From the IMG/VR virus record IMGVR_UViG_3300042543_000362, positions 1-62,814 of that record: 62,814 bases of DNA; one strand, written 5' to 3'. This document shows positions 4,597-30,450 of the stretch, piece after piece. The translations under genes and the position numbers were made by a program. Within the stretch, counting starts at the first letter, position 1. Each line of letters starts with the position of its first letter. Source of the DNA: a virus. Under the pieces are notes generated by a model. That model worked only from the letters and a program-made list of their open reading frames with translations. It did no database searches and was not told the DNA's origin.

Positions 4597-4747
4597 GCAT
4601 CACCAGTGGGCGCGGGAGTTGGGGAGGCGGTTGCCGTAGCGGTGACGTGTCGGCGGGTCAGCTGTTTCGCTGACGGGTTTGGTGGACGTGTTAAGAGGGT
4701 TGGGGTGGTGAGTGGGTGACGGATTGTGAACTGACCCCGTAGGTGGT
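4597..4747. other. intergenic stretch, no gene seen
   Basis: About 150 bp of G-rich sequence leads up to the promoter-like module at 4748. It contains TTGTGAACTG near 4727, which recurs near 31523 in front of the equivalent module there. No convincing ORF or RNA gene is visible. Confidence 0.4.
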
Positions 4748-4882
4748 TGCCAGTGTGTGCCCCACGGGTTACAGTGATGGCATCGGGAGGGAAACCTCTT
4801 CCGGGGCTCCGGCCCCTGGCCCACGGGGAGCCTGCCAGATCGTCGGCATTCCCCGCACCCACTCCACCGCCACTCGCCAGCT
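4748..4882 (+). promoter_or_regulatory. promoter-hairpin-leader module 1
   Basis: TGCCAG at 4748-4753, a 16-bp spacer and TACAGT at 4770-4775 match the recurring promoter pattern of this window. Downstream lies a GGGGC/GCCCC hairpin (4803-4816). CACTCGCCA at 4871-4879 ends 3 nt before ATG 4883. The stretch from about 4757 to 4782 is nearly identical to that of the module at 6460. No Shine-Dalgarno sequence is obvious between the leader word and the ATG. Confidence 0.55.
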
Positions 4883-6529: not shown

Positions 6530-6787
6530 ATGACCGCTCTGATCCCCGCCGCCAACTTCACCGCCCGCAAGCTGGCTGATTTCCGCGTTGATGTTCAGCC
6601 GGGCCAGTACATGCTCTGCAATGGCTGGGGTATCTGGGACGCCGCCGCCGCCGCATGGGTCGCCGGCCCGCGCGATGCTGAGGGCGTGACGGTGCTGGCG
6701 CCTTGGGCCTTCAAGACTCGCAAGGTGGCTCAGCTGGCCGCACGTGATGGCCTCATCTTCAGCCCCGGCTATCAAACCGTGGCCTGA
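6530..6787 (+). CDS. hypothetical protein (85 aa)
   Basis: The product starts MTALIPAANFTARKLADFRV and contains GWGIWDAAAAAW and ARDGLIFSPGY. It reads like a compact mixed alpha-beta domain without cysteine clusters or membrane helices. No family recognised. The start follows the complete promoter-leader module, so it is likely the first gene of its own transcript. Confidence 0.65.
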   Translation: MTALIPAANFTARKLADFRVDVQPGQYMLCNGWGIWDAAAAAWVAGPRDAEGVTVLAPWAFKTRKVAQLAARDGLIFSPGYQTVA

Positions 6788-6851
6788 TCCCACCCCACGG
6801 CCCCAGCGCCGGGCTTCCTATCACCCACCTCACCGCTTCGCCAGCGCCGCC

Positions 6852-7130
6852 ATGAACAACACCCAGCTCAAAAACCAGTTATTCCCCGAGCACCTCACTG
6901 GTGATCGCCCTGTTTTTACATGGCAAAAGACCGCCAACATTGGCGACGATCATGTGATCTGGTGGCTTTATTACGGATACGCAGATGGAGGGGGCACGCT
7001 TTGCTGCAGATTCTTTCATCCGCGCTCTGCGCCTCTTACTGGAAAAAGAAGAAAGGTCGTAGCGTTTCACTTGCGCGAACTAAAAGCGCAAGTTCGCAGG
7101 GATTGGCGCGCTCGCTTTCCCGCTTATTGA
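6852..7130 (+). CDS. hypothetical protein (92 aa), converges on the sigma gene
   Basis: The product starts MNNTQLKNQLFPEHLTGDRP, has a hydrophobic aromatic core (VIWWLYYGYADGGGTLCC), then a basic tail (LRELKAQVRRDWRARFPAY). A leader variant, CTTCGCCAGCGCCGCC, precedes the ATG. The last 95 nt overlap the 3' end of the leftward sigma gene. No family recognised. Confidence 0.6.
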   Translation: MNNTQLKNQLFPEHLTGDRPVFTWQKTANIGDDHVIWWLYYGYADGGGTLCCRFFHPRSAPLTGKRRKVVAFHLRELKAQVRRDWRARFPAY

Positions 7131-8223
7131 CTGGCTGACCCCCCCCAGCAGCAGCGACCCGCAGCCGATCGCCGAGACAGACCCAGTTCCTGGGGAATCC
7201 CCCAACCCTGCGCAGCGCCGGGGACGCGGGCTTCACCCTTTCAACCGGCACCAGCACCAGCTGATCAGGCCGCTCGCGGCGCCGCCTGCTCTTGTCCTTT
7301 GGCTCCGGTTTCTTCCGCTCCACCGCCACCAGCACCAGCTGCACCGACTGCGACGCCAGCGACGCCTGCAGCCGTGCAAGCCGCACCTCCAAGGCCCGTG
7401 TGCTCAGGCCTTCCTGCTGGGCCAGCTCGCTCCGGGGGATCTCCACCCCGTCAAGGCCCCAGGCCAGGGACAACAACCTGCGATCCGGCGGCGCCAACCT
7501 GGCGATCAGCCCCCGCAGCTGCTCCGCCTGGCGCCAGCGTTCGCGCTGTTCCTCTTCATCCTCTGGCGTGCGGTCGTAGGCGGCGCACAGGCTGCCCAGC
7601 TCTAGCCCGTCATCGGTCACGACCTGATCCAGCGAGGCCACCGGCCGGCCGTTCTCAATCACCTGCTCCAGCACCCGCAGCGACACGCCCAGCTCTGCGG
7701 CGATCTCCGCCTGCGTCGGCGTGCGGCTCAGTTCCCGTTCCAGCCGTCGGGTGATGGCGTCCAGCTTCGCTAGATGCTGGCAGTGGCTGCCGGGGATGGC
7801 GATGGCGCGGCCGTGCTGATCGACCCAGCGGTTGATGGCCTGCCGTATCCACCAATATGCGTAGGTGGAGAACCGGTAGCCCTTCGCCGGATCAAACCGC
7901 TCAGCGGCGGTGATCAGGCCCATGTTCCCGGCTTGGGTCAGATCTTCGCGGTCGAATGACCGGGTGAGCCTGTGGCAGCGCTTGGAGATGTACGCCACCA
8001 CCAGCCGCAGATTCGCCGATACGAACCGGTCCCGGGCCCGCTGGCCGCGGCGCCGGATCCCTGGTGGGCACGGGTCGGGGTGCTGCTGCCAGCGCTGGAT
8101 GGCCGTGCCCAGTTCAATCTCTTCGGCTGGGGAGAGCAGGGGAATGCGCCCGATCGAGTCGAGCCACCAGGACTGGTTGCTGCTGGCCGGCACGGATCGA
8201 ATGTGACGATTTGCCCCCATCAT
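7036..8223 (-). CDS. phage-encoded sigma-70 family RNA polymerase sigma factor
   Basis: The 395-residue protein would redirect host RNA polymerase. Region 1.2 is near residues 15-45. Region 2 is well kept: FVSANLRLVVAYISKRC (67-83), DLTQAGNMGLITAAERFDPAKG (94-115) and YRFSTYAYWWIRQAINRW (116-133), the last being the -10 reading and melting helix. Region 3 covers about 145-200. Region 4 (about 235-290) is degenerate: the helix-turn-helix reads IPRSELAQQEGLSTRALEVRLARL instead of the usual TLEEIG...RERVRQIE pattern. A 100-residue tail carries two copies of QLVLV-VERxKP. ATG 8223 or GTG at residue 11 could start it. It is the only leftward gene in this arm and abuts a promoter module. Closest in style to cyanobacterial group 2 sigma factors. 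Confidence 0.85.
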   Translation of the reverse strand: MMGANRHIRSVPASSNQSWWLDSIGRIPLLSPAEEIELGTAIQRWQQHPDPCPPGIRRRGQRARDRFVSANLRLVVAYISKRCHRLTRSFDREDLTQAGNMGLITAAERFDPAKGYRFSTYAYWWIRQAINRWVDQHGRAIAIPGSHCQHLAKLDAITRRLERELSRTPTQAEIAAELGVSLRVLEQVIENGRPVASLDQVVTDDGLELGSLCAAYDRTPEDEEEQRERWRQAEQLRGLIARLAPPDRRLLSLAWGLDGVEIPRSELAQQEGLSTRALEVRLARLQASLASQSVQLVLVAVERKKPEPKDKSRRRRERPDQLVLVPVERVKPASPALRRVGGFPRNWVCLGDRLRVAAAGGGQPVNKRESERANPCELALLVRASETLRPFFFFQ

Positions 8224-26810: not shown

Positions 26811-29441
26811 ATGCCCCTAGACGCAGCGGACGGCAGCTGGCCCCGGCTGCTGATGGAACTGGGCGGCCTATCGCCTGAGCAGCTCACTGACACTCACCAG
26901 CCCTGCCCGAACTGCGGCGGGGAGGACCGCTACCGGTGGGACTGCGACGACGGCCCCGGAGGCTGGTTCTGCAACCAATGCGGCGGCAAGGACCGCATGG
27001 GTGGTGGCGGCAATGGCATGGACCTGCTGATGCGGGTCAAGGGTTGGGAGTTCAAGGACGCCTGCCGCAGGGTTGAGGAACACTTGGGACCGCCGCAGCC
27101 AGTGGCCGCTAAGCCGAAACCCAAGGGCCGGCCGCATCGCATCCCCGATCAGCCGCCAGCCGATGCCGCCGCCCCCGCACTGGGCCGGGCCACCGCCCAG
27201 TGGTGCTACCGCAATGCCGCTGGTGAGCAGCTGTTCTGGGTGCAGCGCATCCCCAAGCCCGACGGCAAGCTGTTCGTGCACCGGACCTGGCTGGACGGTG
27301 GCTGGCACTACCCCAGCAAGCGCGACCCGTTCAAGTCGGAATGGCCCACACCCCGGCCGCTCTACCGCCTGCCGGATTTGACAGGCAGGCCTGATGCCCC
27401 GGCGCTGATCACCGAGGGCGAGAAGGCCGCTGACGCTGCTGCTGAGCTGTTTCCTGATCACGTCTGCTTGGCCTGGTGCGGCGGCACGGGCGGCATCAAC
27501 ACCGTGGACTGGCAGGCCCTGGCGGGCCGCGACGTGACGCTCTGGCCCGATGCCGATGAGCCCGGCCGAGCGTGCATGGCGAAGGTCGCCGCCAAGCTTC
27601 TGCCCATCGCCGCATCGATGGCCATCGTTGCCCCGCCAGGGTCGGCGCCCGAAGGCTGGGACCTGGCCGATGCCACCGACTGGACCCAACGCCAGGCCGC
27701 CAACGCCCTGCGGAAGTTCGCCAAGGCCGTGGAAGCACCGGCCGAACCTGAGCCCGCGCCCTCCCCCCCGGCACCCGCGCCCGAGCCCCCGGCAGACATC
27801 CCCACGTCCCGCCCCTTCACCTGCCTGGGCTTCGACGAGGGGATTTTCTATTACCAGCCACGCAGCACCGGCCAGGTCACCGGAATATCTCGCGGCAGCC
27901 ACACCGGCACCAACCTGGTGCAGCTCGCTGAGCTGGGGTACTGGGAGGCGCTCTACCCGTCGAAGACCGGCGTGAACTGGCTGGCCGCCGCATCCTCGCT
28001 GTTCGCTGAGCAGGCCCGGGTGGGCATCTTCAGCCCTGACCGCATCCGTGGCCGTGGCGCCTGGTGGGACGCCGGCAGGTCGGTCCTGCACCTGGGCGAC
28101 CGGCTGTTGATTGATGGCGAGCTACACCCGATCGCCAAGCCGCCCCGATCGAAGTTTCACTACCAGCGCCTCGCATCAATCGACCTGCCCGACGGCATCG
28201 AGCCACTCACCGATCACCTGGGCGCCGAGCTGATCGACATCGCCTCACGGTTCCATTGGGAGGTGCCGGCCTCAGGCCTGCTGCTGGCGGGATGGATTGC
28301 TCTGGCGCCAATCTGCGGCGCCCTCCAGTGGCGTCCGCACCTGTGGTTGACCGCATCGGCCGGCTCGGGCAAGTCTGCCATCCTTGATCGGCTCGTTGGC
28401 CCGCTGATCGAATCGCTGGCGCTGTTTCCTGAGGGCAACACTACCGAGGCCTTCATCCGCCAGCAGCTCCGCTCCGATGCGGTGCCCGTGGTGTTCGATG
28501 AGGCCGAATCCAACGAGAAGGCCGACCGCCAGCGGATCCAGAACATCCTCTCGCTGGCCCGGGTCGCCAGCAGCGCCGGCCGCGGCGTGATCGGCAAGGG
28601 CGGCGCCGATGGCACTGCGCAGAGCTTCACCATTCGATCGATGTTTCTGCTGTGCTCGATTTCCACAGCCCTGAAGCAGGGCGCCGATCAATCCCGGTTC
28701 GCTCAGCTCACCCTGCGCAATCCGTCCTACCTGCCGAAGGAGCAGCGCATCGCCCACTGGTCCGCGCTGGACGCTGAGATCACCCGCCTCTGCACGCCCG
28801 AAACCGGCCACCGCCTAATGCTCCGCATGGTGCGCCAGATCCCGATCATCCGCGATTCGGTCGCCGTTTTCCGCAGGGCAGCAGCCGAGCGGTTCGACAG
28901 CCAGCGGCAGGGCGATCAGTACGGCACCCTGCTGGCCGGCGCGTGGTCGCTGATGAGTTCTAGGGCCGCCACCATTGAAGACGCCTATTGCCTCATCGAT
29001 GCCAACGACTGGGACGCCTACAAGGAACAGTCCGAGGCCGATGAGGAGCGCTGCCTGCAGCACATCCTGCAGTATCCCATGCGGATCGAATTGGAGCGGA
29101 TGGAGGTGATCGGCGGCAAGGTGTTCAACCGGGTCAGCGCCACCACGCGGACCGTGTGGGAGCTCGTTGAGGCAATGAATGGCTCAGCCGACACTCAGGA
29201 AATCCTCCCCGAGGCGGCTGAGCCTCACTTGGGCCGATTGGGCATCAGGGTCTCCGGTGGCCGGCTGATGATCGCCAACACGGCCCTGGGTCTGCAGCGC
29301 ATCCTCGCGGACACCCCATGGGCGCACAGCTGGCCCACGGTCTTGGCCCGCCTGCCCGGCGCAGAGAAGGCCGGCAAGGTCCGGTTCAAGGGCATGAGCA
29401 ACAGCAGTCGGGCCGTGTCGCTGCCGCTGCCGAAGGACTGA
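26811..29441 (+). CDS. primase-helicase replication protein
   Basis: The 876-residue protein starts with a primase zinc ribbon (C32, C35, C54, C57), then a Toprim-like domain with E202-G-E204 and D247-x-D249. A Pro/Ala linker follows near 310-340. The C-terminal helicase domain has Walker A ASAGSGKS (515-522) and Walker B VVFDEAE (D563, E564). It would prime and unwind DNA at the origin. It is directly followed by a dense repeat field that could be that origin. Confidence 0.85.
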   Translation: MPLDAADGSWPRLLMELGGLSPEQLTDTHQPCPNCGGEDRYRWDCDDGPGGWFCNQCGGKDRMGGGGNGMDLLMRVKGWEFKDACRRVEEHLGPPQPVAAKPKPKGRPHRIPDQPPADAAAPALGRATAQWCYRNAAGEQLFWVQRIPKPDGKLFVHRTWLDGGWHYPSKRDPFKSEWPTPRPLYRLPDLTGRPDAPALITEGEKAADAAAELFPDHVCLAWCGGTGGINTVDWQALAGRDVTLWPDADEPGRACMAKVAAKLLPIAASMAIVAPPGSAPEGWDLADATDWTQRQAANALRKFAKAVEAPAEPEPAPSPPAPAPEPPADIPTSRPFTCLGFDEGIFYYQPRSTGQVTGISRGSHTGTNLVQLAELGYWEALYPSKTGVNWLAAASSLFAEQARVGIFSPDRIRGRGAWWDAGRSVLHLGDRLLIDGELHPIAKPPRSKFHYQRLASIDLPDGIEPLTDHLGAELIDIASRFHWEVPASGLLLAGWIALAPICGALQWRPHLWLTASAGSGKSAILDRLVGPLIESLALFPEGNTTEAFIRQQLRSDAVPVVFDEAESNEKADRQRIQNILSLARVASSAGRGVIGKGGADGTAQSFTIRSMFLLCSISTALKQGADQSRFAQLTLRNPSYLPKEQRIAHWSALDAEITRLCTPETGHRLMLRMVRQIPIIRDSVAVFRRAAAERFDSQRQGDQYGTLLAGAWSLMSSRAATIEDAYCLIDANDWDAYKEQSEADEERCLQHILQYPMRIELERMEVIGGKVFNRVSATTRTVWELVEAMNGSADTQEILPEAAEPHLGRLGIRVSGGRLMIANTALGLQRILADTPWAHSWPTVLARLPGAEKAGKVRFKGMSNSSRAVSLPLPKD

Positions 29442-29735
29442 ATCCCGTTCCAACCGGAACAGCGGAACAGAGGCGGAACGGCCTGAACCCAGTCGTGGAG
29501 AGGGTTTGTTCCGCTTGTTCCGCTGTTCCGCTTTTTTCCGGGGACAGCCCCATAGAGAGCAGGTGAGCTGATCACCCTGTTCCATTGGGGCAGACCCCTC
29601 TATGTATCTGTATTTCTCTTTAGAGGTGGAACAACGGAACAAAGGGGAGCCCAGGCCCGTGGTGGCCTGCTGTTTGACCCGTTCCGCTTTTTGTTCCACC
29701 CCCGGAACAGGCGGAACGGGGCGGAACGGGCATAT
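29442..29735. repeat. iteron-like GTTCC/GGAAC repeat field, candidate replication origin
   Basis: Fifteen GTTCC or GGAAC words lie between 29447 and 29727, eight of them extended to GTTCCGC or GCGGAAC (29462, 29473, 29508, 29517, 29525, 29681, 29711, 29721). They fall in two clusters that flank an AT-richer core near 29596-29626. Some pairs form hairpins. The layout (repeats, AT-rich core, next to a primase-helicase gene) matches phage and satellite origins. A repressor-binding field is the alternative. Confidence 0.6.
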
Positions 29736-29790: not shown

Positions 29791-30450
29791 ATGGCCACCT
29801 CTGCATCGCAGACCTACATCGCTCGACTCGGGTTCCAAGACCGCGACCGCTCAAGCGAACAACACGGCCTAGCGTGCGAATACCTGTTTGAGCGGATGAT
29901 TGAACTAGAGGTTGCGCCGTTTTTTCATAAGACCAACCGAGACGATTTTGTTTATCGCATTGAAGAGGTAAAGCGTGAAATCACTACCTACGAAAGCAAC
30001 TCGTATTACAAAAACAGGCCTGAATCGCAAAAGGCTAAAGCTAAGCTTCAAGAGCTAGAACAACACTTAGAGGATTTTGACGCAAGCAGCAAGCCTTCTG
30101 ATTACATAGCAGAAGCTCGCGACCTATACAAAGTTGGCAACTGCGTAAACGTTCCGATTGTTTCGCGTTCCTTCGTCAATGGTTTCGCTGATGTCTTAAT
30201 TGATAGATATCATCATAAATGGCTTGGTGAAGTTAAAATAACAAAAGAGCCGGCTGAAAATGTATTGCAACAAATTAACTTTTATCTGAGCTATTTAGAT
30301 AACGTTGATGCTGTCTACATTCTCACCGAATACGACCCTGGTGATCTAAAACGGCTCTGCTTTGGCACGAAGATCAAGGTTTACCGCCTTGGTCAAGTCT
30401 TTCAGCAGTGGCTCGCCAGCCGGACGATGCCTGCCACCGAGGAGCTCTGA
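29791..30450 (+). CDS. low-GC PD-(D/E)XK nuclease-like protein
   Basis: The 219-residue protein has a coiled region (55-100) and a nuclease-like core: NGFADVLID with D134, GEVKI with E147 and K149, then LQQINFYLSYL. This resembles restriction-type PD-(D/E)XK folds. The gene is much AT-richer than its neighbours, with its own promoter-like site, so it looks like acquired cargo. Target unknown. Confidence 0.55.
   Translation: MATSASQTYIARLGFQDRDRSSEQHGLACEYLFERMIELEVAPFFHKTNRDDFVYRIEEVKREITTYESNSYYKNRPESQKAKAKLQELEQHLEDFDASSKPSDYIAEARDLYKVGNCVNVPIVSRSFVNGFADVLIDRYHHKWLGEVKITKEPAENVLQQINFYLSYLDNVDAVYILTEYDPGDLKRLCFGTKIKVYRLGQVFQQWLASRTMPATEEL

Follow-up and report, generated by a model that had tools for sequence, protein, structure and literature searches.

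A fifteen-iteron array behind the primase-helicase gene as the probable replication origin of a cyanobacterial tailed phage

Most tailed-phage origins are unmapped. In the cyanobacterial phage record analysed here (62,814 nucleotides, hereafter the window), a dense field of GTTCC/GGAAC words lies directly behind a primase-helicase gene, raising the question of whether this array is the origin of replication and whether the neighbouring enzyme is its initiator. We consider this very probable, with binding argued from covariation between iterons and enzyme across related loci, and origin function argued from layout and from analogy with known systems. The record includes terminase, portal, major head, tail, and tape-measure genes and, because these structural genes are its own, the phage is not a satellite. 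A sigma-70 family gene (regions 1.2, 2, and 3) is encoded on the minus strand at 7036-8223.

The iteron array and the primase-helicase gene

The first-pass annotation had claimed fifteen GTTCC/GGAAC words in about 280 bp, in two clusters around an AT-richer centre, and both points held. Exactly 15 copies occupy 29447-29727 (281 bp), starting 5 bp past the stop codon of the gene for an 876-aa primase-helicase, against a background outside the array of 0.50 per 281 bp (Poisson P ~2e-17). The second-densest GGAAC window in the 62.8 kb held 4 copies; CCGGC, a common GC-rich 5-mer with 521 copies in the window, also reached 15 once, compared with a GGAAC background of only 127. The full repeat is 7 bp long, 5'-CGGAACA-3', with GGAAC as its core and somewhat variable flanks. 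Seven iterons constitute the left cluster at 29447-29529 (GGAAC on the plus strand at 29456, 29464, and 29475, and on the minus strand at 29447, 29508, 29517, and 29525), followed by a lone GTTCC iteron between the clusters at 29579-29583. A tandem pair, GGAACaacGGAAC, at 29628-29640 and five iterons of the right cluster at 29681-29727 (minus strand at 29681 and 29693, plus strand at 29704, 29713, and 29723), whose grid positions are conserved in relatives, complete the array at 29628-29727. The array centre (29560-29649) is 47-50% GC and the remainder ~57-65%. By base composition, the AT-rich tract at 29599-29625 is a candidate DNA-unwinding element, and the tandem pair is a landmark directly 3' of it.

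Other elements are interspersed with the iterons. A short inverted repeat, GGGGACAGCCCC, at 29540-29551 recurs in similar form in many relatives. Imperfect dyads are also present, one within each half of the array: one at 29480-29507, with counterparts amid the left iterons of relatives, and one running from the tandem pair to the right iterons at 29641-29680, again with counterparts in relatives. These dyads might mark where the primase starts or where host factors bind. Hairpin formation by the right dyad was not borne out, as covariation was weak (64.3% of cells paired compared with 62.4% in shuffles), although slid versions paired in only 32-48%, and we describe it as a conserved imperfect dyad. 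GC skew along the window, a check that the first-pass annotation had proposed, gave no clean extremum at the array and was uninformative on the origin, and an Rfam search of 25-34 kb returned no match. Directly 3' of the array, a low-GC ORF of 219 aa (29791-30450, plus strand) matched nothing in Pfam or PHROG, and none of the fetched relatives had similar DNA; we read it as a probable recent insertion or cargo gene.

Dense short intergenic repeats can be operators, and the array could accordingly be a field for a repressor or activator of the downstream genes, an alternative already raised in the first-pass annotation. However, a promoter and terminator scan of the array found neither, organisms that use other promoter types being outside its coverage, and arrays are conserved in the fetched relatives even though the next gene (29791-30450) has no counterpart there.

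The upstream gene (26811-29441, plus strand) encodes a Zn-ribbon (residues ~1-95), a Toprim domain (~125-310), an SF3-type helicase (~335-734), and a C-terminal domain (CTD; 735-876). The protein matched Pfam Zn_Ribbon_Prim (4e-11) and PHROG 35358, DNA primase (1e-128), and contains the Walker A motif SAGSGKS. Foldseek matched its AlphaFold2 model (mean pLDDT 86) to NrS-1, poxvirus D5/E5, PriRep1 (7pds, with dsDNA), and the SaPI5 primase-helicase (7ola), with E values of 1.8e-7 to 1.5e-5, and the model predicts an SF3 helicase fold as in replication initiators.

The CTD, encoded at 29013-29438 on the plus strand, tracks iteron type and is a putative iteron-binding domain. Modelled alone (pLDDT 92), it places residues 856-858 at the end of a strand in its last beta-hairpin; their codons, K856-V857-R858, lie at 29376-29384 on the plus strand. 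Foldseek with the CTD alone gave no significant match, and sequence searches of PDB chains and Pfam gave nothing credible. VIA-align returned mostly winged-helix DNA-binding proteins at Z 2-4.3, within noise, and these weak matches included TcpK on oriT, IRF and HSF domains, PriRep1, and RepE, at Z 2.5-4.3. The lack of a better structural match is no evidence for a new fold.

Arrays and cassette exchange among relatives

Loci of relatives were drawn from IMG/VR, GTDB genomes, and annotated phages, the named relatives being mainly Synechococcus, Cyanobium, and Vulcanococcus, plus the isolate phage S-H1. A significant array was found directly 3' of the gene at 163 of 219 loci with enough sequence, whereas the same automatic caller, which mislabels GA/GT/GG simple repeats and registers shifted by one base, scored 2 of 360 random stretches of those loci. 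The 5-bp core varied by lineage (GGAAC, GTAAC, GTTAC, GGGAC, GGTAC, GCAAC, GTCAC, GTGAG, GTTAG, GTAAG, GTTCC, and GTCCC; also GTAGAC). The layout was constant, with a tandem pair 8-9 bp apart after an AT-rich stretch, a median of 170 bp past the stop codon, and other iterons on a common grid of ~8-12 bp steps over ten core types. Arrays most often had 5-6 left and 6 right iterons. Across 76 arrays, picked for an AT fraction of at least 0.45 at the tract position, mean AT there was ~0.71, compared with ~0.45 around it.

Among distant homologues, Bdellovibrio phage phi1422 carries 11-12 copies of GGTAACA just 3' of the gene, the array of Acinetobacter phage Acjo_20 lies upstream of the gene, that of Serratia phage MQ-4 lies 1.7 kb downstream, and the vicinity of the gene yielded no array in the distant phages L112, L113, and L114. 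The array was degenerate or displaced in L068, L094, and L033, and in the last of these BLAST placed an array-like stretch (4665-4749) ~1.3 kb past the stop codon, as if displaced by an insertion. Many chromosomal copies in picocyanobacterial genomes (L081-L109) had fewer iterons (6-8), more degenerate and with GTTAC and GTCAC mixed, and several of them, L094 and L090 included, lacked a clear array; perhaps these are decaying prophages or relaxed-specificity elements. In Synechococcus phage S-H1 (L111), the array after the primase gene (6546-6846) interleaves CGTTAG iterons with CCGAAC words, and similarly mixed arrays occurred in L043, L065, and L080. A reverse search starting from the array sequence yielded one new contig, too short on the gene side to read residue 858.

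Comparison with the relative L019 located a natural swap. Apart from one short gap, the DNA of the two phages is ~100% identical from 24.9 kb, and within the gene identity is at least 97% up to 29070, two short dips aside (including one of 60 bp at 77-90% just before), but 13-73% beyond. Position 29070 corresponds to residue 754, where the helix leading into the remainder of the CTD ends. Past this breakpoint the CTDs are 62% identical and the iteron is GGAAC in the window compared with GTAAC in L019. The same pattern was found in L004, where 96.7% identity to the window resumes from 31951, indicating that a cassette was exchanged. The CTDs and arrays nearest to those of the window belong to L174, L039, L006, and L168, in all of which the iterons start with GG. 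In L045, a hybrid array at 7688-8170 has a GTGAG left half and a GTTAC right half joined at the AT tract; as this is a metagenome contig, mis-assembly is possible, as is recombination.

Covariation of iterons with the enzyme

Iteron identity follows the enzyme's final ~130 residues and not its other domains. In 1770 pairs, sharing the same iteron correlated with CTD identity once the remainder of the protein was controlled for (r = 0.26), and not with the remainder once the CTD was (-0.003). Part of this domain-level correlation is linkage, because the CTD and array adjoin. Taken further, the whole covariation might be hitchhiking, with CTD and array, which are adjacent and exchanged together, inherited as one block without interacting.

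Single residues bear on that alternative. In the first 109 loci, R at residue 858 occurred with C at core base 5 and Y, W, or H with G, while K was found at residue 856 where core base 2 is G. Among 136 held-out loci, unused in making the rule and scored by automatic iteron calls with simple-repeat words removed, R/K accompanied C in 50 of 51 and Y/W/H accompanied G in 39 of 41, together 89 of 92. The exceptions were L116, with an apparently six-base core, L246, with a shifted register, and L291, with an uncertain alignment. Of all 817 columns in a whole-protein scan, R858 was the best tracker of base 5, S5 (z 27.5, the next column reaching 12.0), and K856, ranked by raw information, headed the columns for bases 2 and 3, N2/N3. 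On a helicase tree built without the CTD (103 rows), the core changed 38 times, and base 5 and residue 858 changed twelve times each. Residue 858 and base 5 agreed in 9-10 of 11 independent pairs and disagreed in none (p 0.002), and K856 agreed with G at base 2 in 4 of 4 (p 0.125). For the tree test, iteron calls of L096, L105, L097, L074, and L246 had been removed or set by hand, and the test excluded the hybrid L045 and any row with another residue at position 858.

This repeated association at the residue level is our main argument for binding beyond linkage. Hitchhiking would not set column 858 so far above all others, nor would it join one class of residue to one base repeatedly on separate branches, and we regard it as very unlikely. 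In agreement with the earlier suggestion that the neighbouring primase-helicase could bind the array, the comparative data thus point to recognition by its CTD, with the iteron following this domain down to single residues in both the held-out loci and the tree. Covariation with the primase CTD would not be expected of an operator field, which makes that alternative extremely unlikely. The array might also be a packaging, partition, or recombination site for another phage protein, given terminase genes ~5 kb downstream and a RecT-like gene nearby, but such a site gives no reason to expect primase residue 858 to follow an iteron base across independent branches, and its probability is close to negligible.

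Known systems, proposed mechanism, and significance

The best explanation, by analogy, is that the system works like P4 alpha/crr and SaPI Rep/ori, here in a full-size tailed phage. The C-terminal domain of SaPI Rep recognises a short-iteron origin directly downstream of its own gene, apparently as two hexamers, and SCCmec Cch2 does likewise with AAGTG repeats (PMC7581432). The phage enzyme shares with SaPI Rep an SF3-type helicase fold and an iteron array with an AT tract directly downstream of the gene. Unlike SaPI Rep, it has a Zn-ribbon/Toprim primase fused in front, the element is a complete tailed phage and not an island, and the iteron words differ. Structural similarity of the CTD to that of PriRep1 was weak (Z 2.7), with no sequence match among PDB chains.

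With P4 alpha, the enzyme shares a Zn-ribbon primase N-terminus (profile match E 1.7e-26) and the fusion of Zn-ribbon and Toprim primase to a helicase. A CTD profile did not match P4 alpha, even in --max mode; by sequence comparison, a P4-like primase N-terminus is joined to a CTD unmatched by the P4 protein. P4 also has short repeats, the octamers GGTGAACA, in crr right after the alpha gene. However, crr consists of two 120-bp repeats with three annotated octamers each, whereas the 15 iterons of the window form a single array around an AT tract, and P4 is a satellite whereas this is a full-size phage.

The P4 comparison also brings in a different reading, in which the array, though bound by the CTD, serves autoregulation or copy control, comparable to the crr or handcuffing sites of other replicons, and the true start lies elsewhere. 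P4 crr, with its alpha-linked repeats, is separate from P4 ori, and the present array lies downstream of the gene and not at its promoter, as copy control would allow. Nevertheless, an AT tract flanked by iterons on both sides looks origin-like, and where P4 has two repeat sites (ori and crr), the window has one GGAAC cluster, the next best holding 4 copies. We therefore consider copy control unlikely.

Two further systems bear on how a replication origin of this kind would be read. In the pCW3 relaxosome, the winged-helix beta-wing of TcpK reads a tandem 9-nt repeat at oriT in the major groove (PMC6137059). The CTD matched TcpK weakly (Z 4.0-4.1, within the noise range) and TcpK serves conjugation, not replication; because it reads tandem repeats with its wing, wing recognition by residues 856-858 is plausible. 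RepE-type iteron plasmids likewise have repeats beside an AT-rich tract and winged-helix domains (CTD to RepE, weak, Z 2.6). RepE-type initiators load the host helicase, unlike the phage initiator, which carries its own helicase and primase.

In the mechanism that we propose, the CTD (residues 735-876) would bind each 7-bp iteron, with R858 reading base 5 and K856 reading bases 2-3, both from the beta-hairpin 'wing'. Two helicase hexamers would be loaded by about six iterons on either flank of the AT tract, a number that would match one iteron for each subunit. The hexamers would then melt the tract at 29599-29625, and replication would be started with the initiator's own Toprim primase. We give an even chance to the further proposition that the two wing residues, 856 and 858, specify the variable bases of a CG-NNN-SA iteron, amounting to a readable origin code, and that repeated swaps of CTD-origin cassettes change replicon identity often (38 core changes, 103 lineages), perhaps in escape from interference by related phages or satellites. 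A literature search, with most subscription journals outside its reach, found no paper on this array, and neither a readable code nor frequent cassette switching was found described in the literature searched.

Nature supplies ready comparison pairs in the window-L019 swap and in the hybrid array of L045. Should the rule hold, many picocyanobacterial and other phages could have their origins located, and their initiator specificity predicted, by sequence alone. Frequent specificity switching also raises the question of what selects for changed replicon identity.
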